Of a DNA stretch of 64,000 nt, positions 1,083-52,916 are shown piece after piece. The position numbers and the translations under genes were made by a program. Positions within the stretch are counted from its first letter, which is position 1. Every line of letters begins with the position of its first letter. Source of the DNA: Halioglobus sp. (GTDB lineage: Bacteria; Pseudomonadota; Gammaproteobacteria; Pseudomonadales; Halieaceae); the NCBI GenBank assembly GCA_020443425.1, contig JAGRIE010000004.1, positions 62,001-126,000 on the forward strand. The letters run 5' to 3'. The notes under the pieces were generated by a model, which saw only the letters and a program-made list of their open reading frames with translations, was not told where the DNA came from and ran no database searches.

Positions 1083-4000
1083 ATGGACAAACCCTGGTTA
1101 CTTGGCATCGATCTCGGCGGTAGCGGCGCGCGTTGCACGCTGGTCAACCCGCTGTCGACACAGCAGTTCAGCACGTGCGGGGACTGGGAGTTCGAGGCCG
1201 CTCCAGACACCTTCGGCACCGGATATGATATCGACCTGTCGCTGGTGTGGAAGGTGGTGGGACGCACCTGTCGCGAGGTACTGCACGTTGCCGGCATCGA
1301 CCCCGCCGCCGTCGCCGCCACCGCCGTCTGCGCCATGCGTTTCAGCACCGTCATCCTCGACGCCCGTGGTGACGCCCTGCTGGCGGTTGACAACCGCGAT
1401 GCGCGCGCCGTCGGCGAGTACTTTGACATCGCGGAGCAGCTGGGGCCGCGCCTGCTGCAGGAGACGGGCTCATGGCCCCTGCCGCTGCACGCATCAGCGC
1501 GCTTGTCATGGCTGCGCAACCAGCAGCCACAGACTTTTGGCCACGCCGCTACTGTCTTCGGTGTGGGTGAGTGGCTCAACTACCGGCTCACCGGTGTACG
1601 CGCTATCGATCCCACGCAGGCCAGCGCCAGCGGCTTGTTCCACCTGCACCAGATGCAGTGGTGCCGCGATATCATCGACGAATTGCGCCTGCCACTGGGT
1701 ATCTTCCCGCCAGTGTTAGCCGCGGGCAGTGCGCTGGGGACGCTGTCACCTGACAGCGCCGCGCATCTGGGCCTGCATCCAGGCACGATGGTGGCACTGG
1801 GTGGTGCCGACACCCAGTGCAGCCTGCTGGGCAGCGGCGCCACAGCACCCGGAACTGTCGCGGTTGTCGCCGGCACCACGGCCCCGGTGCAGGCAGTGCT
1901 GGCGCAACCGGTGCTCGATGTCGCCGGCGCCGCGCTGGGCAGCCACCACATCACACCCGGTCACTGGGTACTTGAAAGCAATGGCGGCGGCATGGGCTAC
2001 TCGCTCACCCTGATGGCCAGGATGCTGTTTCCACAGGCGCCAGAGCCTGAGCTGCGACTGCTGGCGGAGGCCGCGCAATCCGAACCCGGCGCCGCCGGCC
2101 TGCTCTCCACACTGGGGGGCGAGGTCATGAGTATGCGCGCGCCCGCTGTACCGATGGGCCATATCTCCCTGAGCCATCTGGCGGCCCGGGGCGATGCCGC
2201 GCCGCGCCGCCATCTGGCGCGGGCGCTGGCTGAGGGCTGCGCCTGCGGTGTCCGCGCCAACCTGGAGCAGTTGGAGCGTATCCTGGCCACCGCAGCCACC
2301 CGCTGTGACAGCGCCGCGATCACATTGTGCGGCGGCCTCTCGCGCAGCGACGTTTTCGCCCAGTTGCTGGCGGACATCACCGGTCGCGAGGTGGCGGTTC
2401 CGCACGCGCGCCAGACCGCTGCGCTGGGCGCTGCGATTTGTGCCGCCGTTGCGAGCGGCCTGTCCGGCGACTTTGCCAGCGCCTGCCAGCGCCTGTGCGG
2501 CGCGCACCGCCGCTTCGAACCACAGCGGGCATTTGCCGCGGTTAACGAGCAGTTATACCAGAGCTGGTCACAGTTTCGACAGCAGGCCGAAACTGCCACT
2601 GTGCCGACAGCAGTGGAACACCTGTTGCCGCGCGTACTGAGAGACCCGGAACCCGCACCGACAGCAATAGCCGAAGCGCCGGCCTGCCGCTTGCGGGCAC
2701 TGGTATCAGCATCGTTCGATACCGCGTCCCTGCAGCGCCTGGGGGACTGCATCGACGTAGAGTACGCCAGCTTCCGCGACGTAAAGCGCCTGCTCACCGG
2801 CCCCGACCTGGTGCGGGCACTGCAGGGAAAACAGGTGTTTATCACCGAAGTGGACGTGGTCGACACCGAGGTGCTGCGCCAACTGCCGGAGTTGCGGGTG
2901 GTGGCAGCCTGCCGCGGCGATGCGGTCAATGTCGACGTACCGGCCTGCACCGCCTTCGGCGTACCGGTGCTGTATGCGCCCGGACGCAACGCGATCGCGG
3001 TGGCCGACCTCAGCGTGGCGTTCATGCTGGCCCTGCTCCGCAAGCTGCCGGCGGCAACCGCCTTCCTGCAGCAGCCGCAGTGCACGGCCGGCAATATGGG
3101 CGCAATGGGACAGGCCTTCAGCCAACTGCAGGGTCGCGAGCTGCAGGGCAAAACTATCGGCCTGGTTGGCCTCGGCGCTGTCGGGCGCGCCGTTGCGCAG
3201 CGCCTGCAAGGGTTTGAGGCGAGTGTGCTGGTGGCCGACCCCTTCGCGACACCGGAGCAGGCAGCGCTGGCCGGATGCCGCCTCACCGACCTGGAAACCC
3301 TGCTGCAGGTCAGCGATATTGTCAGCCTGCACGCCGCCGTCACCGATGACACTCGCGGCATGTTCGCTGCAGAACAGTTCGCCAGCATGAAACCGGGCGC
3401 GCTTTTTATCAATACGGCGCGGGCCGCACTGATCGACGAGCAGGCGCTGGTCGACGCGCTGGACAGTGGTCGGTTGGGCGGCGCCGCACTCGATGCGTTT
3501 GCGCTGGAACCGCCCGGTTCCGGGCACCCGCTGGTACAACACCCTGCTGTGATCACCACCCCCCATGTGGCGGGCAATACCGCAGAGGTCGCCGTGCACC
3601 AGGGCAACAGCATCACCGACGCGCTGCTGCAGTTACTGCGGGGCGAAGTCCCGCACAATGTCCTGAACCCGCAGGCACTGGCACGCTTCGACTGGAATCG
3701 CGCCAGGCCTGCACCGGATGCACACACGCTGGCCATGCTCGGCCAGCGCAGCGCCCCGGCCGTGACCGACCTGCAGCGCGATGCGAGCGCCGCGCCATCC
3801 CCGGCTGCTGACGGGCACACCGCTGCAACACCCGGTGCCGCAGACGTCCCGGCAGAGATCGCGGCAAACATGCGGCGGATTCTGCAACGGTTCTGCGCCG
3901 GAATGACGGCGGACCCGGCCCTTACAGCCTTCAGCGCCGATCGTGAAGTGACCCTGCATTTCACCGCCCACGACCTGGATTTACAGTTTTACCTGAGCCT

Positions 4001-4934
4001 GCAGCGCGGTCGTGTGGTGAGTGCACTGGGATCGCCCGATACCGCCGCAGAAGTACAGCTGCAAATGCGCGGCGAGATACTCGACGGCATGTTCAATGGC
4101 AGCGTCGATGCGATGGAGTGCGCGATGAACGGCGAATTATCCTTTATCGGCGATGCCGCCAAGGCGATGACACTGCAACACATGCAGTCGGACATGGAGC
4201 GCGTCTATAGAGCAGCGCGGGCCCAGGCGGGCGATCCGGGTGACTGGAGCAGCGTCATTCCGGCGGGTCAAGCCGCTGCGACCAGCGCCGATCCGGACGC
4301 GCCGGATATACGCCGGGAAATGGTCTGCGTGATGGAGGAGTTGTACCAGTCAGGGGTTATCACCGCAACCGGCGGCAATATCAGCGTCCGTGTGCCCGGC
4401 AGTGCGGAAGAGCTGTGGATCACCCCCAGCCGCCTGTTCAAAGGCGACCTGAGTCCGGCGGTGATGGTGCGCATCAACCTCAGCGGGGAGAGCCTCGACA
4501 GCGGCGCGCGCTCGCCGTCCAGTGAGTGGTGCATGCACACACGCATTCTGCAGGCCAGAACGCAGGCCAATGCCGTCATCCACGCCCACGCGCCCAATGC
4601 CACCATCCTGGCCAATTGCGGTTTGCCGTTTCTGCCCGTATCCACCGAGGCAGCCTTTTTTGATGACATCCCGCGTGTGCCCTTCCTGATGCCGGGCACA
4701 CCCGAACTGGCCGACGCAGTGGTCGCTGCGATGGGGGATGAATGGGCGGTACTGATGGTGAATCACGGCATTGTCGTGGCCGGGCGCTCGCTGCGTCGCG
4801 CGGCTGATATGATAGAAATCATTGAGCGCACCGCGGAGATTCTGCTGGGCTGCCGCGCAGTCGGCGTGGAACCGCCGGTGCTGCCAGCGGACGCCGTCGC
4901 GTATTTTCGCCGCATCGGCGATATCGTGGCCTGA
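1083..4934 (+). CDS. Four-module fusion: FGGY kinase / 2-hydroxyacid dehydrogenase / SCP2 / class II aldolase
   Basis: A 1283-residue cytoplasmic protein with four recognisable modules. Residues about 1-510 are an FGGY carbohydrate kinase: N-terminal phosphate loop IDLGGSG, GGADTQ with candidate catalytic D243, and the later LCGGLSRSD motif. Residues about 535-865 are a D-2-hydroxyacid dehydrogenase of the phosphoglycerate dehydrogenase type: GLGAVG (696-701), INTARAALID carrying the substrate Arg, and TTPHVAGN with H828. Residues about 928-1045 resemble an SCP2 sterol-carrier domain. Residues about 1075-1283 are a class II aldolase/epimerase of the FucA type with E1148 in SSEW and zinc ligands H1167, H1169 and H1228. 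All four look intact. The aldolase, dehydrogenase and kinase reactions would fit phosphorylation, oxidation and cleavage of a sugar or polyol; the substrate is unknown. The start ATG has only a weak ribosome site. I see no internal frameshift that could suggest an assembly artefact. Confidence 0.9.
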   Translation: MDKPWLLGIDLGGSGARCTLVNPLSTQQFSTCGDWEFEAAPDTFGTGYDIDLSLVWKVVGRTCREVLHVAGIDPAAVAATAVCAMRFSTVILDARGDALLAVDNRDARAVGEYFDIAEQLGPRLLQETGSWPLPLHASARLSWLRNQQPQTFGHAATVFGVGEWLNYRLTGVRAIDPTQASASGLFHLHQMQWCRDIIDELRLPLGIFPPVLAAGSALGTLSPDSAAHLGLHPGTMVALGGADTQCSLLGSGATAPGTVAVVAGTTAPVQAVLAQPVLDVAGAALGSHHITPGHWVLESNGGGMGYSLTLMARMLFPQAPEPELRLLAEAAQSEPGAAGLLSTLGGEVMSMRAPAVPMGHISLSHLAARGDAAPRRHLARALAEGCACGVRANLEQLERILATAATRCDSAAITLCGGLSRSDVFAQLLADITGREVAVPHARQTAALGAAICAAVASGLSGDFASACQRLCGAHRRFEPQRAFAAVNEQLYQSWSQFRQQAETATVPTAVEHLLPRVLRDPEPAPTAIAEAPACRLRALVSASFDTASLQRLGDCIDVEYASFRDVKRLLTGPDLVRALQGKQVFITEVDVVDTEVLRQLPELRVVAACRGDAVNVDVPACTAFGVPVLYAPGRNAIAVADLSVAFMLALLRKLPAATAFLQQPQCTAGNMGAMGQAFSQLQGRELQGKTIGLVGLGAVGRAVAQRLQGFEASVLVADPFATPEQAALAGCRLTDLETLLQVSDIVSLHAAVTDDTRGMFAAEQFASMKPGALFINTARAALIDEQALVDALDSGRLGGAALDAFALEPPGSGHPLVQHPAVITTPHVAGNTAEVAVHQGNSITDALLQLLRGEVPHNVLNPQALARFDWNRARPAPDAHTLAMLGQRSAPAVTDLQRDASAAPSPAADGHTAATPGAADVPAEIAANMRRILQRFCAGMTADPALTAFSADREVTLHFTAHDLDLQFYLSLQRGRVVSALGSPDTAAEVQLQMRGEILDGMFNGSVDAMECAMNGELSFIGDAAKAMTLQHMQSDMERVYRAARAQAGDPGDWSSVIPAGQAAATSADPDAPDIRREMVCVMEELYQSGVITATGGNISVRVPGSAEELWITPSRLFKGDLSPAVMVRINLSGESLDSGARSPSSEWCMHTRILQARTQANAVIHAHAPNATILANCGLPFLPVSTEAAFFDDIPRVPFLMPGTPELADAVVAAMGDEWAVLMVNHGIVVAGRSLRRAADMIEIIERTAEILLGCRAVGVEPPVLPADAVAYFRRIGDIVA

Positions 4935-6905: not shown

Positions 6906-7877
6906 ATGGCCGCTAACGAACACACACCGTCACCCAGGCCGCTGCTGGGTATCGGTTCCTGTCTCGCCGGGAACGCAGTGCGCTACAACGGGGAGACAAA
7001 GAAACCCAACGAGTATGTGCGCGCTATCGGCGAGCACTTCGACACCCGCGCATTCTGCCCGGAGATGGGTGTCGGCCTGGGCGTGCCCAGACCTCCCATC
7101 AGGCTGGTGGGCAGCGCAGACGCGGTGCGCATCGTCGATGTCAAAACCCACTCTCACGACTACACCGACGCAATCCAGGCGTACGCGCGCCAGGTGCTGC
7201 AGCAGGCACCCCAACTGTGCGGCTATATCCTCGTAAAAGGCAGCCCCAGCTGCGGTTACGGCCGGGTTAAGCGCTACTCCCAGGACGGCCAGCATCTCGC
7301 CTCGGACCAGAACGGCGTGTTCGCCGACGCACTCGCGCAGGCCGACCCACTGTTACCGCTGGAGGACGACGGGCGCCTCAATGATCCCGGACTCAGGGAG
7401 AGTTTCGTGACACGCGCCTGCGCCTACCACGACTGGAAACGCCTGGTTGCGACCGGCCTCACCGCGCATCGCCTGATCGACTTCTATACACGCTATAAAT
7501 ACCTGGTGATGGCCCATCACGTGCCCAGCTACAAATCACTGGGGCCGCTGGTTGCCAATGCCGCCAAACTCCCGCTGGAGAAACTGGCTACACAGTTCAT
7601 CCACGCACTGATGGCAGCGCTCACCTACCGTGCCACACGGCGCAGTCACAGCAATGTGCTCTTTCATTTGGCCGGCTACCTGAAACGGAGCATCACCACA
7701 CCGCAGCGCCAGCGGCTGGCGGCCCTGATCGAGGATTACCGCACCGGACAAGTGCCACTGATCGTCCCTGTGACGCTGTTGAAGCACCACTTCGCGGACA
7801 ACCCTAACGCCTACATCGACGGTCAGGTTTTTCTCGACCCCTATCCCGATGAACTGCGGGTGCGCAATGTCGTGTGA
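6906..7877 (+). CDS. DUF523 and DUF1722 protein (YbgA-like)
   Basis: A 323-residue cytoplasmic protein with two conserved uncharacterised domains. The N-terminal half is DUF523: GIGSCLAG, AFCPEMGVGLGVPR and KGSPSCGYG carry the conserved Cys residues. The C-terminal half, from about residue 180, is DUF1722 (FYTRYKYLVMAHHVPSYKSLG, then HFADNPNAYIDGQVFLDPYP at the end), the domain of E. coli YbgA. In many marine and soil proteobacteria such genes sit next to photolyase and light- or stress-responsive regulators. Here the neighbours are a sigma factor upstream and an epimerase-like gene downstream, but no photolyase is in view. AATCAGGAG gives a good ribosome site six bases before the ATG. The biochemical function is not known. 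Its 3' end overlaps the convergent epimerase gene by 37 bp. Confidence 0.9.
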   Translation: MAANEHTPSPRPLLGIGSCLAGNAVRYNGETKKPNEYVRAIGEHFDTRAFCPEMGVGLGVPRPPIRLVGSADAVRIVDVKTHSHDYTDAIQAYARQVLQQAPQLCGYILVKGSPSCGYGRVKRYSQDGQHLASDQNGVFADALAQADPLLPLEDDGRLNDPGLRESFVTRACAYHDWKRLVATGLTAHRLIDFYTRYKYLVMAHHVPSYKSLGPLVANAAKLPLEKLATQFIHALMAALTYRATRRSHSNVLFHLAGYLKRSITTPQRQRLAALIEDYRTGQVPLIVPVTLLKHHFADNPNAYIDGQVFLDPYPDELRVRNVV

Positions 7878-13307: not shown

Positions 13308-14495
13308 TTAAATAAAGTAATCGGTGTTAGCGGCACCCAGTGCCACCGCACCCAGGTTGCGTGCGAACGCGGTTGGATTATTCGCTACGTGCGCCCTCGC
13401 GGTGTGGATGTCCAGGAACCGCTGCTGTATCGCGCTGCCCTGGAACACCGACGAACCGCCGGCTGACGAGAACAGTGCATCGACCACCTCGATTGACTTT
13501 TCAATAACCAGCGACGCCTGGTAGCGATAGAGGATACGGTCCTCCAGTGAAATGGGATGACCGGCACGCAGTGCAGCCATCATGGCATCAAAATTGGCAA
13601 GCATCACTGTCGTCATTTCCTCGATGGCATTTCGCGCCGCAGCGATACGCATCTGTGTGCCGGTGTCTTCGGCCAGTTTGGTGACATCGCCGCTGGCCTT
13701 GCCGCGCACCAGCGCCGTGTACAGCGATAGCGCATCCCTGGCGGCTCCGATCGCGGGCGTGGACACCACACGGATAAACAACTGGGCCCAGGGCAGGCGG
13801 TACAGCAGGGCACTGTCCTTATCGACTCCTGGATTGGTCCCTGCGAATCCGTCCGACTGTCTATGGGTGCGGTAATCCGGCACGAAGACGTCTTCCACCA
13901 CGATGTCATTGGATCCGGTGCCCTGCAGCCCCATGGAGTGCCAGGTATCCTCTATACGGTAATCTGTGCGCGGGACCAAAAACGTGCGGTACGTGCCGTC
14001 AGGCAGGATACCGCCCAGCAGCGCCCAACTGCAGTGGTCGCAGCCGCTGCTCCATCCCCAGCGCCCGGAGAACCGGAACCCGCCGTCCACCGGTGTCACC
14101 TTGCCCATCGGCGCGTAGGAGGACGATACCCGGGTGTGGATGTCATCACCCCAGACATCGCGCTGCGCGCGCTCGTCCATCAGGGCAATCTGGAATGCGT
14201 GTACCGCGACAATGCCGCTGGCCCAGGCGGTTGACATGCAGCACTCGGCGATAGCCATCTGCATGCGGAAAAAATCCTGTGGATCCAGTTCATAGCCACC
14301 CCAGCGCGCCGGTTGCAGCGCCAGGAAAAAACCCGCCTCCTGCAGCGCCGCGATACTCTCGACCGGAACCCGTCGCTCGCTGCGGGCCCGGGCGGCGTTC
14401 GCGCGCAACAGGGGCTGCAATCCCTGAATACGGGACACCATGGCCTGGCCCTCCTGCTGTCGCAGCGGTGCCTCCATCGTCAGCTGTTTATTCAT
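13308..14495 (-). CDS. HsaA-like flavin-dependent monooxygenase (acyl-CoA dehydrogenase fold)
   Basis: A 395-residue two-component monooxygenase oxygenase subunit. It follows the layout of HsaA, which hydroxylates a phenolic secosteroid in sterol degradation: FFLALQPARWGGYELDP, TRVSSSYAPMGKV, FSGRWGWSSGCDHCSWALLGG and MGLQGTGSNDIVVEDVFVP. Related enzymes act on phenols, indole or dibenzothiophene, so the substrate is not fixed. They use reduced flavin delivered by a separate reductase. The start is the ATG at 14495 with GGAG seven bases upstream; the extra N-terminal 42 residues of the open frame are read from a terminator hairpin. The deazaflavin-type gene follows after eight bases. Confidence 0.85.
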   Translation of the reverse strand: MNKQLTMEAPLRQQEGQAMVSRIQGLQPLLRANAARARSERRVPVESIAALQEAGFFLALQPARWGGYELDPQDFFRMQMAIAECCMSTAWASGIVAVHAFQIALMDERAQRDVWGDDIHTRVSSSYAPMGKVTPVDGGFRFSGRWGWSSGCDHCSWALLGGILPDGTYRTFLVPRTDYRIEDTWHSMGLQGTGSNDIVVEDVFVPDYRTHRQSDGFAGTNPGVDKDSALLYRLPWAQLFIRVVSTPAIGAARDALSLYTALVRGKASGDVTKLAEDTGTQMRIAAARNAIEEMTTVMLANFDAMMAALRAGHPISLEDRILYRYQASLVIEKSIEVVDALFSSAGGSSVFQGSAIQQRFLDIHTARAHVANNPTAFARNLGAVALGAANTDYFI

Positions 14496-14531
14496 GCTCT
14501 TTCTCCGTCTTATGTCGCACTTCCCACGCGT

Positions 14532-14557
14532 AAAAACCCCGCGGCCGGAGCCGCGGG
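14532..14557 (-). terminator. Rho-independent terminator between the SDR and monooxygenase genes
   Basis: Read on the minus strand, an 8-bp GC stem (CCCGCGGC/GCCGCGGG, loop TCCG) is followed by a run of T. It is placed to end the short-chain dehydrogenase message, but it also lies only about 37 bases before the monooxygenase ATG, which leaves little room for a promoter. Confidence 0.8.
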
Positions 14558-14675
14558 CAAGGGGGTTGGGATGGGGAATGACGGACGGGGGCAGGTGTTT
14601 GCCTGCCGCCGCAGTCGTCATGCCAAAGATACGGGGGGCGAGATCAACCGGATCACCGACTGCAAAAAAAATGTA

Positions 14676-15488: not shown

Positions 15489-15689
15489 TTCACTCACCTG
15501 TTCTGTAGGCTGCCCCGGCCGAGTCACTGCCTCTACCCGCACCACACAAGGCGTTACCTGTCGCCGGTCAATCGCCGTAGTCTATCCCAGAATCACTGGC
15601 CTGCCAGGCAAGCGCCGGAATAAACCATTGATCATACAGGCAAATCTCTCGATACTGTCGCGGATAATCGGGGGGAGTTGGAGAGGTCG

Positions 15690-17993
15690 ATGCGGCTACA
15701 GTCAGCGACGCTGGCGATCGCACTCGTAGCCATGGCGCAGCAGGCGATGTCGCAGGGCCGGGACAGTGCGCTTGAAGAGATTCTGGTCACCGCGCAACAC
15801 CGGACCGAATCGGCTATGTCGACACCGATTTCGCTGGTGACAATGAACACAGGCGAGCTGGAAAAGCAGCGCATCGAGAGCATCTCTGATCTCAACGGCC
15901 TGGTGCCCAACCTGAATATCGACAACTTCCCCTCAAACAACCAGACGCTGAGGCTGTTCATTCGCGGCGTCGGACTCACCGACACCCAGATTACGCAGGA
16001 CCCGGCGGTCGGGGTGTATCTGAACGGGGCCTACATCGCCCGCTCTGCCGGCCTCACCTTTGACGTGGCCGACCTGGAGCGCATTGAGGTATTGCGCGGG
16101 CCACAGGGGACGCTCTACGGGCGCAATACCACTGGCGGCGCGATAAAGTTAGTCACCCGCAAACCCGACACCGCCGCGCTGAGCGCCGGGCAGACGCTGA
16201 GTGTCGGCAACAACGCACTGTTCAGCAGCAAGACATCGATCAACCTGCCGCTCGGTGCCGGGTATGCAGCGAAACTTGCGTATTTTTACGAGGACGTCGA
16301 CGGCTTTACCAATAACGCAGGCCCCGGCGGGGGGTTTGGTGACCGCGAGTCCAGGGGCTTCAGGCTGGATTTTCGCGCCGACTTCAGCGATACCCTGCGA
16401 CTGGATTACGGCTACGACCACTCCAGAATCGAGTCCCACAACTACACAGCGCAGGCGGTGACACCGAGGACACCGGGCGATGGGCTGCTCGGCATTATCG
16501 GTGATATCGTGGTCGCCAACGATTATGTCAATTACGGCAGTGAGCGCTTCGACGAGCTCGCCACCTCAGTGCCGCTGCTGCCGACGGACACCCGGATAGA
16601 CGGCCATACGGCAAATATCGAATGGGCGGTAGACGATGCCACGAGCCTGCACGCGATCACCGCCTGGCGTGATTTGCGCGACAAAACGTATACGGATTTC
16701 GCCAGCGGTGCCAGCGGGCAGTTCCGCATTGATTTCAACAGCGCCGTCATCGGTGCCAATGCCGGTGAGCAGCGCATGGACCTGCCCGCGGTGCGCCCCG
16801 ACCTGAAGCATGAACAGTTCTCCCAGGAGTTCCAGCTGCTGGGCCGCGCCGGCGACGCTGTCGACTACCTCGCCGGTGTCTATTACTTCTGGGAGCAGGG
16901 CCGCGAGAATGCGCAGCCGCTGCACCATATGTTCGACGTCTTCCCGTTCGGGGCCAACGGCACTCTCTACAACCTCAGCGCGGAAACCAACCGCATCGAA
17001 AACGAGACCGTGGCGGTGTTTGCCCAGTTGACCTGGACACCGGATATCCTGGACCGGCATCTACACCTCACGCTGGGCGGACGCTATTCCCGAGACTCCC
17101 GCAAGGCCTCGCGGGATGTGACAGACTCCACTGTGCTCGACCTCGATACATCAGTCGTCAACTTCATCGGGCCGTCTGTGTTCAGCGCCAGCCCCGATCA
17201 CGATTTCAACGACACCTCCTTCACGCTCATCTCCCAGTACGACATACAGGAGCACTTCAATGTCTACCTGAAATACGCCGGGGCCTACAAAAGCGGTGGT
17301 TTCAATATCCGCGACCCGGAAGAATCCGGTTTCAACGCCGGTTTCGATGAAGAGACACTGAATGCCTTCGAACTGGGATTCAAGGGAGAGACGCCCGATC
17401 GCCGGCTGCGACTGAACAGCGCGGTCTTCTACCAGAAGTTTGACGACTACCAGTACAACTTCCAGGTGCCCGATACGATATCGGGAACCCGGGTGTTCAA
17501 TATCGATAACGGCGAGATGTCGGGCGTGGAACTGGAGCTGACTGCGCTGCCTGCCGAAGGCCTGCTGTTGCAGGCGAGCTACGCCTACCTGGACAGCAAG
17601 CTCGACGACGTCGAAAACCCCTTCACCGGTGAAATCGGGAAAGCCTACTTTGACAACGCCCCAAGACACACCTACCGGTTGATGGTGGGATATACGTTCG
17701 CACCCACCCCGCTGGGGGTGTTCAATGCCAATGCCAGTTACAACTCCGTGGGAAAACGCAATGAACACAACCCGACCCTATACCGCGACGCCTATGCGCT
17801 GCTGAACGCCCGCATTGCGCTGAGCGACATTCCCGGCCCCGGAGGTCGGTGGGAAGTCGCGCTGTGGGGGAAGAACCTGGCCGATTCGGACTACGAGGCC
17901 TTCGCACTGGACAACCTGCCGCAGGCGGATCGCGCTGTCATCTGGGGAGACGGTCGCAGTTACGGGCTGGACGTCAGCTACCGCTATCATTGA
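15690..17993 (+). CDS. TonB-dependent outer-membrane receptor
   Basis: A 767-residue receptor. A short signal peptide (LAIALVAMAQQAMSQ) precedes the TonB box EEILVTAQ. The plug domain shows LNGLVPNLNIDNFPSNN, IRGVGLTD and the IEVLRGPQGTLYGRNTTGGAIKLVT motif typical of the family. The barrel ends SYGLDVSYRYH, lacking the usual terminal Phe. The N-terminal half resembles receptors of the pesticin/FyuA-like, broad-substrate type common in marine gammaproteobacteria. The start is the ATG at 15690, with GGAGAGG just before it, rather than the TTG at 15678. No siderophore or transporter genes flank it, so the ligand is open. A hairpin follows the stop. Confidence 0.93.
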   Translation: MRLQSATLAIALVAMAQQAMSQGRDSALEEILVTAQHRTESAMSTPISLVTMNTGELEKQRIESISDLNGLVPNLNIDNFPSNNQTLRLFIRGVGLTDTQITQDPAVGVYLNGAYIARSAGLTFDVADLERIEVLRGPQGTLYGRNTTGGAIKLVTRKPDTAALSAGQTLSVGNNALFSSKTSINLPLGAGYAAKLAYFYEDVDGFTNNAGPGGGFGDRESRGFRLDFRADFSDTLRLDYGYDHSRIESHNYTAQAVTPRTPGDGLLGIIGDIVVANDYVNYGSERFDELATSVPLLPTDTRIDGHTANIEWAVDDATSLHAITAWRDLRDKTYTDFASGASGQFRIDFNSAVIGANAGEQRMDLPAVRPDLKHEQFSQEFQLLGRAGDAVDYLAGVYYFWEQGRENAQPLHHMFDVFPFGANGTLYNLSAETNRIENETVAVFAQLTWTPDILDRHLHLTLGGRYSRDSRKASRDVTDSTVLDLDTSVVNFIGPSVFSASPDHDFNDTSFTLISQYDIQEHFNVYLKYAGAYKSGGFNIRDPEESGFNAGFDEETLNAFELGFKGETPDRRLRLNSAVFYQKFDDYQYNFQVPDTISGTRVFNIDNGEMSGVELELTALPAEGLLLQASYAYLDSKLDDVENPFTGEIGKAYFDNAPRHTYRLMVGYTFAPTPLGVFNANASYNSVGKRNEHNPTLYRDAYALLNARIALSDIPGPGGRWEVALWGKNLADSDYEAFALDNLPQADRAVIWGDGRSYGLDVSYRYH

Positions 17994-50669: not shown

Positions 50670-52916
50670 TCAAAACGTGTAGTTCACCGTGACGCCGTAT
50701 TCCCGCCCCGGCCAGAAGGTTCCCTCCCAGGTATCCACTGCCGGGACACCGTTATCCTTCGCCACCGGGTCGATATTGAAGTCCTCGTTGGTGATGTTTT
50801 TGCACCAGAGCCGTATATCCAGGCCCAGCGCTGTCTCGCGAAACCCGAGGTTGAACCCGATAAGGTTCTTGTCAGTGCTGAACTCATCGGTGCTGACGGT
50901 GTAATTTGCCTCCGAGTGCCATGTCCAGTTCAGCCTCGAGTAAAGTTCCCAGGCGCCGGCCAGCGGCCTCTGGTATCCCAGCTGAGTATTCAGGTTCCAC
51001 TGCGGCAGTGAGTTCAGCGGGTCGCCGCCACTTTTCGGACAGTACAACTGGTCGTCACTCTGCTCCTCACCTCCCTCGCAAAAACGATTTCCCCAGTCCT
51101 CTATGGAGGCATCGAAATAGGCCCCACTGAAGTCGACATCCCAGTGCTCGCCCAGCAGGTAGGCCAGCTCGAACTCAATGCCCTGTGTGCGCACCTTGTT
51201 GGCATTCACAATCGCACCCTCAAACAGGCCCTCCAGCGGCATCAGGGCTTTGACCCTGTTCGGCTGGGTCAACTGGTGATCGTGGAACTCCTGGTAGAAT
51301 ACATCCACGGCAAAACGCAGCGTGTCATCCAGCACCGTACCCTTGAGCCCGATTTCATAGGCCGTGGAGACCTCTTCCTCAAACGCGAGTACATCCCTGC
51401 CCACAGCTGCCGGCACCGGGAAAATCTCATCGAATGGCAGTACGGCTGATGTCAGCGTGTTGAACCCGCCCTGCTTGTAGGCATTGTCTACCGCCAGGTA
51501 GGCGTTGAGGTTATCCCTGATGTAGTACTGCAGTTTGATACTCCACGACACATGGTCGAAATCCAGCGAGTCATCGATCGCACCGGCGTACTCGAGGAAG
51601 CTTACGTTGGAATCCAGTGTGGACTTGTTGTAGTCATAGCGTGCACCCAGCGACAGGTCCCACTGCGGCGCGAGGTGCAGCGTGCCATTGAGGTAGGCGG
51701 CATACCCCTCGGTAGTGCCCTTGGCATCCTGCACCACATCGATACCCCTGAGCGTGACACTGGTGTCACTGACAGCCTTGGAGTACAGATAGTAGAGGCC
51801 GGTCAGGTAGCTGAAGCTGTCGCTTTCGTCAGAGTATCGCAGCTCGAAGGTGGTGAGATCGGTGTCGAGGCCAATCTGGAACACCCCCAGCCCCCCCGGG
51901 TAGGGCTCGCGGTTGTCATTGGACTGGCTGTCGTAGCTCTGGTAGAACGCAAAGGCATCGATCTGGGACGTCCCCTCCCCCCAGCGCAGATGGACATTGC
52001 TGTCCTTGATGTCGCCCGTGACCTCGCTGCGAAAATCGCCGAAGTTGCGGCGCGCTTTGAAGGTGTTGTAGACGGCGGGGCTGCCACTGCTGCCGCCGGT
52101 CCCGGGCACGAGGCCGTCATAATTGAACGGCTCCTGGTACTGGTGGATATCCTGGTAGTTCACGGTCCAGTTGATATCCATACTCTCGTCTACCTGCCAC
52201 AGCAGGCGCGAGCGCCAGGCCTGCACATCCTGGCCGCCGGTGGCGCTGTCCGATGCCGCCGGGTTTTCCATTTCAATATAGCCGTCGGAGTCCGCATAGA
52301 CACCCGCCAGTCGCAGCGCCAGTGTGTCATCGAGCAGGGGAATATTGACTGCACCCCGGGTGTCTATCCTGCCCTCACCGGTATTGTCCCACTGCGAGTA
52401 GCTGCCCTCGAGATAACCGTTGTAGCCGTCAAAGTTCGGCGCACGGGTCGTGATATTGTAGGCGCCACCGGGCGCATTCTGTCCGTACAGCGTGCCCTGG
52501 GGACCGCGCAGCAGTTCCAGTCGCTCTATATCCACCAGCGTCGTGAACACCGCGCCGATCTGGGATTGCGCCACCTGGTCCACGAATACGGTCACACTCT
52601 GCGGCTGCCCCAGCGCAAAATAACCCGGGCCGACACCGCGCAGCCGGATCGCTGCGGCCTGCAGCCCGCTGTTAAGTGAAATACCCGGTGTCAGTTGCGC
52701 GGTCTCGATAAAGTCAAAGATATTCAGCGCACTGATTTCCTCGGCGCTGACGACCGCAATCGATATCGGCACGTCCTGCACATTCTCGCTGCGCTTCTCC
52801 GCCGTTACGATGACTTCCTCCAGCATGCGACCATCTTCAGCGCGCGCGGATGCGGCAAACGACAGCACTGCCAGCGCACCCCAGAACGTGATCGCTGGCG
52901 TCAATGAAATGGACAC
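50670..52916 (-). CDS. TonB-dependent outer-membrane receptor
   Basis: A 748-residue receptor. A signal peptide ending AASARA is followed by the TonB box LEEVIVTAEKR. The plug shows IRLRGVGPGYFALGQPQSVTVFVD in part and ELLRGPQGTLYGQNAPGGAYNITT. The barrel ends GREYGVTVNYTF with the terminal Phe. The loop with CEGGEEQSDDQLYC holds a Cys pair likely to form an external disulfide. The sequence resembles the broad receptor group expanded in marine gammaproteobacteria. No uptake genes flank it; the next gene upstream is the amidotransferase-like protein, 158 bp away on the same strand. Confidence 0.94.
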   Translation of the reverse strand: MSISLTPAITFWGALAVLSFAASARAEDGRMLEEVIVTAEKRSENVQDVPISIAVVSAEEISALNIFDFIETAQLTPGISLNSGLQAAAIRLRGVGPGYFALGQPQSVTVFVDQVAQSQIGAVFTTLVDIERLELLRGPQGTLYGQNAPGGAYNITTRAPNFDGYNGYLEGSYSQWDNTGEGRIDTRGAVNIPLLDDTLALRLAGVYADSDGYIEMENPAASDSATGGQDVQAWRSRLLWQVDESMDINWTVNYQDIHQYQEPFNYDGLVPGTGGSSGSPAVYNTFKARRNFGDFRSEVTGDIKDSNVHLRWGEGTSQIDAFAFYQSYDSQSNDNREPYPGGLGVFQIGLDTDLTTFELRYSDESDSFSYLTGLYYLYSKAVSDTSVTLRGIDVVQDAKGTTEGYAAYLNGTLHLAPQWDLSLGARYDYNKSTLDSNVSFLEYAGAIDDSLDFDHVSWSIKLQYYIRDNLNAYLAVDNAYKQGGFNTLTSAVLPFDEIFPVPAAVGRDVLAFEEEVSTAYEIGLKGTVLDDTLRFAVDVFYQEFHDHQLTQPNRVKALMPLEGLFEGAIVNANKVRTQGIEFELAYLLGEHWDVDFSGAYFDASIEDWGNRFCEGGEEQSDDQLYCPKSGGDPLNSLPQWNLNTQLGYQRPLAGAWELYSRLNWTWHSEANYTVSTDEFSTDKNLIGFNLGFRETALGLDIRLWCKNITNEDFNIDPVAKDNGVPAVDTWEGTFWPGREYGVTVNYTF

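Follow-up and report, generated by a model that had tools for sequence, protein, structure and literature searches.

What would a lipid-carrier domain do in the middle of a chain of sugar-type enzymes? The question is raised by a gene in a 64,000-nucleotide stretch of Halioglobus sp. DNA (assembly GCA_020443425.1, contig JAGRIE010000004.1, positions 62,001 to 126,000 of the forward strand; hereafter the window), which encodes an FGGY kinase, a D-2-hydroxyacid dehydrogenase, an SCP2 domain and a class II aldolase in a single chain. An original prediction, made from the DNA letters, had seen in it a sugar or polyol pathway collapsed into one protein, in which SCP2 had no obvious place. We find that the four-part module is real and widespread, and undescribed in the literature searched. 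We propose, at a probability of about 0.48, that it is a single-chain 'head-clipping' enzyme for an amphiphile, for which we infer the order of steps, the substrate class, the role of SCP2 and the products.

Domain structure and catalytic residues

Translation gave a single uninterrupted frame of 1283 amino acids with a stop at its end. The Pfam search that had been suggested as a check on the original prediction (FGGY_N/C, 2-Hacid_dh, SCP2, Aldolase_II) found every module above its gathering score, so that the claim of four modules in one frame is upheld. The features are as follows; pLDDT is the predicted local distance difference test of AlphaFold2 and NAD is nicotinamide adenine dinucleotide.

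1083-4934, + strand: fused gene, kinase - dehydrogenase - SCP2 - aldolase, 1283 amino acids (translation, Pfam, conservation across genomes)
1098-1832, + strand: FGGY_N, residues 6-250, with catalytic Asp243 at 1809-1811 (PF00370, 110.8 bits, E 1.1e-31)
1860-2453, + strand: FGGY_C, residues 260-457 (PF02782, 62.7 bits, E 5.2e-17)
2715-3668, + strand: D-2-hydroxyacid dehydrogenase, residues 545-862, NAD motif 696-701, triad R780, E809, H828 (PF00389/PF02826)
3771-3839, + strand: predicted flexible linker, dehydrogenase to SCP2, residues 897-919 (AlphaFold2 pLDDT below 50)
3852-4229, + strand: SCP2 domain, residues 924-1049 (PF02036, AlphaFold2 pLDDT 93.3, Foldseek)
4266-4298, + strand: predicted flexible linker, SCP2 to aldolase, residues 1062-1072 (AlphaFold2 pLDDT below 50)
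4317-4847, + strand: class II aldolase, residues 1079-1255, with E1148, H1167, H1169, H1228 (PF00596, 158.8 bits, E 1.8e-46)

The dehydrogenase matched 2-Hacid_dh at E 7.2e-11 and 2-Hacid_dh_C (PF02826) at E 1.5e-56 (191.1 bits), the two parts together covering chain residues 545-862, and the weakest match of the chain was that of SCP2 to PF02036 at residues 956-1034 (E 1.7e-7, 31.9 bits, cut-off 21.3). The stretch 901-920, at the first linker, has a mean identity of 30% among members of the genus. All the key residues singled out beforehand (D243, GLGAVG at 696-701, H828, E1148, H1167, H1169 and H1228) are present and conserved. GLGAVG forms the Rossmann/NAD motif of the dehydrogenase domain, and R780 and E809, additional to the residues listed earlier, complete with H828 the R-E-H triad of D-2-hydroxyacid dehydrogenases. 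Conservation was read from domain alignments, which also take in contigs fetched again and some relatives that do not belong to the four-part set: D243 is unchanged in 85 of 86 kinase rows; R780, E809 and H828 are retained in 102, 100 and 101 of 105 dehydrogenase rows; and in the 64 aldolase rows H1167 and H1169 are invariant, E1148 and H1228 each being kept in 63. The exceptions are gaps, apart from a single P at 809 and a single G at 1148. By profile, motif and residue, the parts of the chain are members of the FGGY kinase, D-2-hydroxyacid dehydrogenase, SCP2 and Aldolase_II families.

Distribution of the fused protein

So odd a combination might be the product of a frameshift, a misassembly or a chance open reading frame (ORF) joining unrelated genes, and split frames in three loci (L071, L087, L215) show that errors or mutations do occur in such loci. 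A search of 140 genomes of the family found the protein in 14 of the 17 other members of the window's genus, ten of them full length at 51-72% identity and four cut by contig ends, and gave no reported match (E <= 1e-40) beyond the dehydrogenase region in the 122 family genomes outside the genus. At the level of the order, three of 293 genomes matched at E <= 1e-100: that of the window, a second from the same genus and a third from a different family. A scan of 84,980 species genomes returned 109 relatives, 80 of which were kept. Carriers of the fused protein comprise Halioglobus relatives, three Mycobacterium species, Myxococcota, 'Deltaproteobacteria' and Chloroflexota, including the isolate Bellilinea caldifistulae; five of 198 sampled Mycobacterium genomes were positive, and 24 of 298 genomes of the class of Bellilinea matched at E <= 1e-100, counting fused and unfused forms.

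All four domains lie in one frame at 49 loci, or 40 distinct contigs once nine fetched twice are removed; among the 49, L071 has its kinase split between two frames, and contig ends truncate L056, L060 and L063. The same architecture is thus found well outside the window's genome, as the original prediction had asked. Identical domain order on 40 distinct contigs, isolates (Mycobacterium, Bellilinea) among them, with catalytic residues kept, argues against an artefact, and the full-length fusion at 51-72% identity in ten genomes of the genus excludes chance and assembly error. An artefact is ruled out on these grounds, the chance of one being vanishingly small. Variants of the fused form were also seen: a tandem SCP2 pair within the protein (L065:12740-13585, L081:2893-3777) and a gene split into two overlapping frames, perhaps by decay or a sequencing error (L071, L082/L216, L087, L215).

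SCP2 as a partner of the three enzymes

Unfused forms of the module place SCP2 beside the same three enzymes. A search of 292 Thermoplasmatota genomes found 14 with a match at E <= 1e-60. Ten of the regions were read, and nine of these carry a free-standing SCP2 gene beside the dehydrogenase, plus kinase and aldolase where the contig allows; the tenth (L165) has the dehydrogenase match only. The other four comprise one SCP2-dehydrogenase-kinase set (G425, which is L099) and three genomes whose matches cover the dehydrogenase only (G450, G461, G462). One archaeal SCP2 protein matched the Pfam SCP2 profile at E 7.6e-13. The archaeal gene order seen, SCP2-dehydrogenase-kinase-aldolase, recurs in the Anaerolineae class (L203, L204, L206, L207, L208), where dehydrogenase-SCP2-kinase-aldolase is also found (L201, L202, L205); at L161, L163 and L164 the SCP2 gene flanks the set on the opposite strand. 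A separate SCP2 gene of about 108-153 amino acids, in three arrangements, is present in both Thermoplasmatota and Anaerolineae.

A tree of the kinase, dehydrogenase and aldolase was built from 54 loci; loci lacking any of the three enzymes were excluded and 15 more were skipped as second copies, fragments or near-duplicates. The 37 fused tips group together (support 0.991), the archaeal operons, seven in number, make up a clade of their own (1.0), and a further clade (0.998) unites eight unfused operons from the class of Bellilinea. From this topology we infer a single fusion event followed by spread, with SCP2 in the set before or apart from the fusion. SCP2 occurs in 37 of 37 fused tips, and a separate SCP2 gene lies beside 15 of the 17 unfused complete trios; on this gene record SCP2 is a conserved partner of the kinase-dehydrogenase-aldolase set. 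The earlier view that SCP2 has no obvious place is not supported, given these counts, the duplication in L065 and L081 and the existence of SCP2 as a gene of its own. Kinase-dehydrogenase pairs with no aldolase or SCP2 match in the stretch read were seen in actinobacterial and Caldilineales metagenome-assembled genomes (L092-L094, L098, L100, L102, L103); an SDR gene adjoins L094 and a HAD hydrolase gene adjoins L093.

A sequence-only search of the PDB with the SCP2 domain gave no match better than E 0.58. The AlphaFold2 model of the domain (pLDDT 93.3) returned 45 Foldseek matches at E <= 0.001, the nearest being the C-terminal domains of the alkylsulfatases Pisa1 (E 3.4e-7) and SdsA1 (E 1.9e-6), followed by UbiJ (E 2.2e-6) and SCP2 proteins of Thermus, human and insects. 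In Pisa1/SdsA1 and UbiJ, which are thus among the nearest solved folds, the SCP2-type part deals with the hydrophobic moiety of the molecule acted on. We know of no case in which these are combined with a kinase, dehydrogenase or aldolase.

Comparison with known enzymes and pathways

In both NCBIfam and the PDB the kinase domain matched LsrK, the autoinducer 2 (AI-2) kinase, best, and GGADTQ lies opposite GGGDVQ in the alignment to the AI-2 kinase 5ya0. The score of 223.6 bits falls short of the equivalog cut-off of 528, and the kinase differs from LsrK in being fused to other enzymes; membership in AI-2 degradation was rejected on that score. The aldolase domain shares its family and its metal and catalytic residues E1148, H1167, H1169 and H1228 with L-fuculose-phosphate and ribulose-1-phosphate aldolases, and aligns to the fuculose-phosphate aldolases 6btd and 4c25. 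Its scores are likewise below the equivalog cut-off for L-fuculose-phosphate aldolase (104.8 against 264 bits) and the cut-off for ribulose-1-phosphate aldolase (94.6 against 300), as is that of the dehydrogenase for the phosphoglycerate dehydrogenase SerA (222.4 against an equivalog cut-off of 454).

A first comparison is with 5-deoxyribose salvage (DrdK, DrdI, DrdA) and the dihydroxyacetone phosphate (DHAP) shunt. In 5-deoxyribose salvage a clustered kinase, isomerase and class II aldolase yield DHAP and acetaldehyde (PMC6079011). As described there, it resembles the module in having a kinase, a ketose 1-phosphate step, a class II aldolase of the fuculose-phosphate type and a gene cluster, and differs from it in using a methylthioribose-type kinase and an isomerase where the module has an FGGY kinase, a dehydrogenase and SCP2. 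Only the aldolase type agrees with drdKIA, and no isomerase domain was found in the chain, to which that search was confined. It is the closest experimental precedent for the chemistry proposed for the module.

A second comparison is with the tetronate pathways (OtnK, OtnC), in which a dehydrogenase, a DUF1537 kinase and an aldolase-family enzyme serve one pathway; their kinase and dehydrogenase are of other families than those of the module. The corresponding reading of the chain would be an acid-sugar route, in which a 2-hydroxy acid would first be oxidised by the dehydrogenase, the resulting keto acid phosphorylated by the kinase, and the product then cleaved or decarboxylated by the domain of the aldolase family; the acid may bear a lipophilic group. 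This would agree with the intact R-E-H triad for a 2-hydroxy acid, the archaeal order SCP2-dehydrogenase-kinase-aldolase, and the gene of glycoside hydrolase family 2 (GH2) above the beta-glucuronidase cut-off by the module in L211, with its cluster mate in L215. The 3-oxo-tetronate-4-phosphate decarboxylase (OtnC) model was also the second best for the aldolase domain, although its 98.5 bits are far under the cut-off of 250. The kinase is FGGY, no DUF1537 match being found in the chain with Pfam, and a pure decarboxylase would have no need of the aldehyde oxidisers that adjoin many loci (see below). We consider the acid-sugar route unlikely.

A proposed mechanism

In the head-clipping reading, the SCP2 domain, joined to the dehydrogenase on one side and the aldolase on the other by a flexible linker each, would hold a lipophilic, probably terpenoid, tail R, and the kinase and dehydrogenase would turn a terminal polyol, R-CHOH-CHOH-CHOH-CH2OH, into a ketose phosphate. 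The FGGY kinase would phosphorylate the terminal hydroxyl of the polyol head, and the dehydrogenase would oxidise the neighbouring secondary hydroxyl to a ketone. Aldolases of the fuculose-phosphate type convert a ketose 1-phosphate to DHAP and an aldehyde, and here retro-aldol cleavage would release a lipophilic aldehyde together with a DHAP-like triose phosphate. A dehydrogenase where 5-deoxyribose salvage has an isomerase would imply an alditol as the substrate. At many archaeal, Chloroflexota and mycobacterial loci a neighbouring aldehyde dehydrogenase (ALDH) or aldehyde oxidoreductase (AOR) would oxidise the aldehyde; at the loci of Halioglobus relatives, Myxococcota and 'Delta' the acid would be made elsewhere, with coenzyme A (CoA) activation and ring oxidation to follow.

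Genomic neighbourhoods

ORFs around the loci were called by a base-composition script, and many flanks are short as contigs end. Near (within 4 kb, 403 kb in total) and far (378 kb) sequence was compared for 59 loci, 12 others having been dropped as duplicates, truncated or without the full set. ALDH was found 11 times near and once far, and AFOR eight times near and never far, in a comparison that is partly circular in that its profiles were seeded from module neighbours and the loci include close relatives, so that its p values are not independent. (Another near/far comparison, open to the same objections, counts two archaeal genomes twice, L091 being L156 and L095 being L162.) An aldehyde oxidiser, ALDH or tungsten AOR, lies within 4 kb at 18 of the 59 loci: five of seven archaeal, ten of 22 Chloroflexota and all three Mycobacterium loci. 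ALDH and AFOR are unrelated and were separately recruited, which argues that the set makes an aldehyde.

An acyl-CoA (AMP-binding) ligase occurs within 4 kb at 14 loci, none shared with the aldehyde oxidisers; these are seven of 11 in the window's genus and seven of 15 other, mainly proteobacterial and myxococcal, loci. Nine of the 14 also have a KshA-type Rieske gene and five a cytochrome P450 gene. The 11 flanked loci of the genus include seven with the ligase and six with the Rieske gene. At L042 the ligase has steroid-24-oyl-CoA synthetase as its best model (615 bits, cut-off 750) and the Rieske protein is nearest KshA (4qdc, E 2.9e-46); at L046 an amidohydrolase beside the module is nearest PtmU3 and DitZ, which have links to diterpenoids. 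Several Halioglobus-relative neighbourhoods thus point to putative polycyclic-terpenoid or steroid-like catabolism. A Pfam census of 99 nearby proteins from 48 loci, a hand-cut, non-random and near-side-only sample (99 of the 140 nearest among 249 neighbours within 3.5 kb), gave AMP-binding 10, Aldedh 9, AFOR 7 and KshA_C with Rieske 7, and, less often, P450 4, GntR with UTRA 4 and glyoxalase 3.

A number of observations weigh against the head-clipping reading. No aldehyde oxidiser or ligase lies within 4 kb at 27 of the 59 loci, including the window's own and L219, and in the window's genus none of the 11 loci with flanking sequence had an ALDH or AOR nearby; four loci (L038, which is the window's, L039, L040 and L048) are without a ligase or Rieske neighbour. 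In the rest of the window's genome, and in those of two near relatives, the best homologues of the Rieske protein are 40-43% identical and those of the ligase 35-37%. With best matches of only 40% and 35% in the window's genome itself, direct orthologues of the Halioglobus-type Rieske and ligase proteins are not claimed there. Acyl-CoA dehydrogenase (five near, 12 far) and enoyl-CoA hydratase (none near, four far) show no enrichment, and that of P450 is weak (five near, one far). A SorC-type sugar-binding regulator and an MFS transporter adjoin the module in Bellilinea, and GntR-UTRA regulators lie near it in other loci. Two complete trios have no SCP2, L209 (class of Bellilinea) and L219 (Bacillota). 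SCP2 domains can also mediate contacts between proteins. A carboxylate is normally required by the 2-hydroxyacid dehydrogenase family, which to our knowledge contains no phospho-polyol dehydrogenase. The full-chain AlphaFold2 model has a predicted TM-score (pTM) of 0.45 and does not fix the placement of the domains; with the low-pLDDT linkers (897-919, 1062-1072) this fits a mobile tethered carrier, without being proof of one.

The regulators and the SCP2-less trios would fit a chain that carried out ordinary pentose, deoxy-sugar or polyol catabolism, with SCP2 only for oligomerisation or contacts and with DHAP and a small aldehyde (glycolaldehyde, lactaldehyde or acetaldehyde) as products. 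Such an aldehyde would need ALDH or AOR just as much, and the nearest characterised families (AI-2 kinase, fuculose-phosphate and ribulose-1-phosphate aldolases) are small-sugar enzymes. Harder to reconcile with ordinary sugar catabolism are the retention of SCP2 in the 37 tips with the fusion and beside 15 of the 17 unfused trios, the KshA-type oxygenase and steroid-CoA-ligase-like genes that adjoin part of the loci, and a free-standing SCP2 gene, which does not square well with a mere contact domain. We regard this explanation as possible, though doubtful. In the Bacillota trio (L219) a double ABC ATPase, a CbiQ-type transporter and a protein with no Pfam match lie between aldolase and kinase, and these transporter genes hint at a small soluble substrate where SCP2 is missing. 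The idea of a pathway collapsed into one chain thus stands in form, given the unfused four-gene operons and the aldehyde oxidisers near archaeal, Chloroflexota and Mycobacterium loci; that it is a plain sugar/polyol or AI-2 pathway is not established, given the missed AI-2 kinase cut-off and the putative terpenoid/steroid-like neighbourhoods of several Halioglobus relatives.

Other genes in the window and around related loci

Directly upstream of the fused gene lies a possible uptake partner, recognised by reading of the sequence:

24-941, + strand: TonB-dependent-receptor-like gene, C-terminal part (whole ORF 737 amino acids at L038:6729-8942)

Two further TonB-dependent-receptor-like genes were read in the window at 15678-17993 (+) and 50670-52916 (-), and an HsaA-like 3-HSA hydroxylase oxygenase of the steroid-ring type (2rfq, E 8.9e-87) lies away from the module at 13308-14621 (-). 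Just upstream of the window, L038:4771-6552 encodes a 594-amino-acid protein with weak PGAP1/DUF676/palmitoyl-thioesterase matches, a relative of which is near the module in L041. Two tandem 875-amino-acid radical SAM proteins are near the module in L039 (2429-7920), the one that was scanned resembling KedN5-type B12 methyltransferases (265 bits, cut-off 700), and an RPE65-family, lignostilbene-dioxygenase-like dioxygenase is encoded at L042:3334-4776, with the same cluster near the module in L045 and L049. Candidate partners considered and set aside include the B12 radical SAM protein, a DAO-oxidase and the gene at window 6906-7877, which are near some Halioglobus-type loci and were not found across clades. 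Beta-oxidation genes, for acyl-CoA dehydrogenase and enoyl-CoA hydratase, were likewise rejected as general partners; they form clusters in L064, L070, L076 and L087, yet are not enriched near the module overall.

A possible hopanoid substrate

Bacteriohopanetetrol is a triterpenoid with a four-hydroxyl, ribose-derived alditol head (C32-C35), and one version of the proposal, which we think rather unlikely, is that the module forms a pathway specialised in removing the polyol side chain of bacteriohopanepolyols. With the triterpenoid held by SCP2, the kinase would act at the C35 hydroxyl and the dehydrogenase at C34, and retro-aldol cleavage between C33 and C32 would give DHAP and bishomohopanal, the C32 aldehyde. 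An alditol, not an aldose, would need a dehydrogenase rather than the isomerase of 5-deoxyribose salvage. ALDH or AOR would turn bishomohopanal into bishomohopanoic acid, which is the C32 hopanoic acid found in sediments. Anaerobes would gain the C3 unit and leave the acid unused, and bacteria with the CoA ligase and KshA-type oxygenase would proceed to the rings. The aminotransferase beside the module in L204 (class III; same cluster in L208 and L210) and the GH2 enzyme of L211 could have amino- or glycosyl-hopanoids as substrates.

In carbonates attributed to an anaerobic community, the C32 17beta,21beta acid is the most abundant hopanoic acid (35-100%; PMC11884234), and peat bishomohopanol derives from tetrafunctionalised hopanoids (PMC7383571). 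Against a mainly anaerobic role, side-chain degradation of bacteriohopanepolyols has been tied to oxic diagenesis with C31 dominant (PMC5935690). The passages on hopanoid degradation found concern diagenesis, chemical (Rohmer) degradation and C31/C32 degradation products, and name no enzyme there. A role in hopanoid biosynthesis was rejected: the squalene-hopene cyclase profile PF13243, which also matches the control genomes Bacillus subtilis and Methanosarcina acetivorans, exceeded its cut-off in seven of 38 module genomes, strongly in just one (457.7 bits) and partially in six (27-33 bits). Most of the genomes with the module are thus not producers of hopanoids. The bacteriohopanetetrol reading is consistent with the data, not demonstrated by them, and other polyol lipids fit equally.

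Significance

The constituent families of the module are known; what is new to us is their combination, the presence of the SCP2 partner in both bacteria and archaea, and the proposed chemistry, and the open-licence literature yielded no description of a lipid-carrier domain as a standing partner of a sugar-type kinase-dehydrogenase-aldolase set. If the head-clipping proposal is true, archaea, Chloroflexota and other bacteria would dismantle polyol lipids by sugar chemistry, using a single-chain machine that brings its own carrier. Should a hopanoid be the substrate, the module would provide an enzymatic route to the hopanoic acids that are used as molecular fossils.

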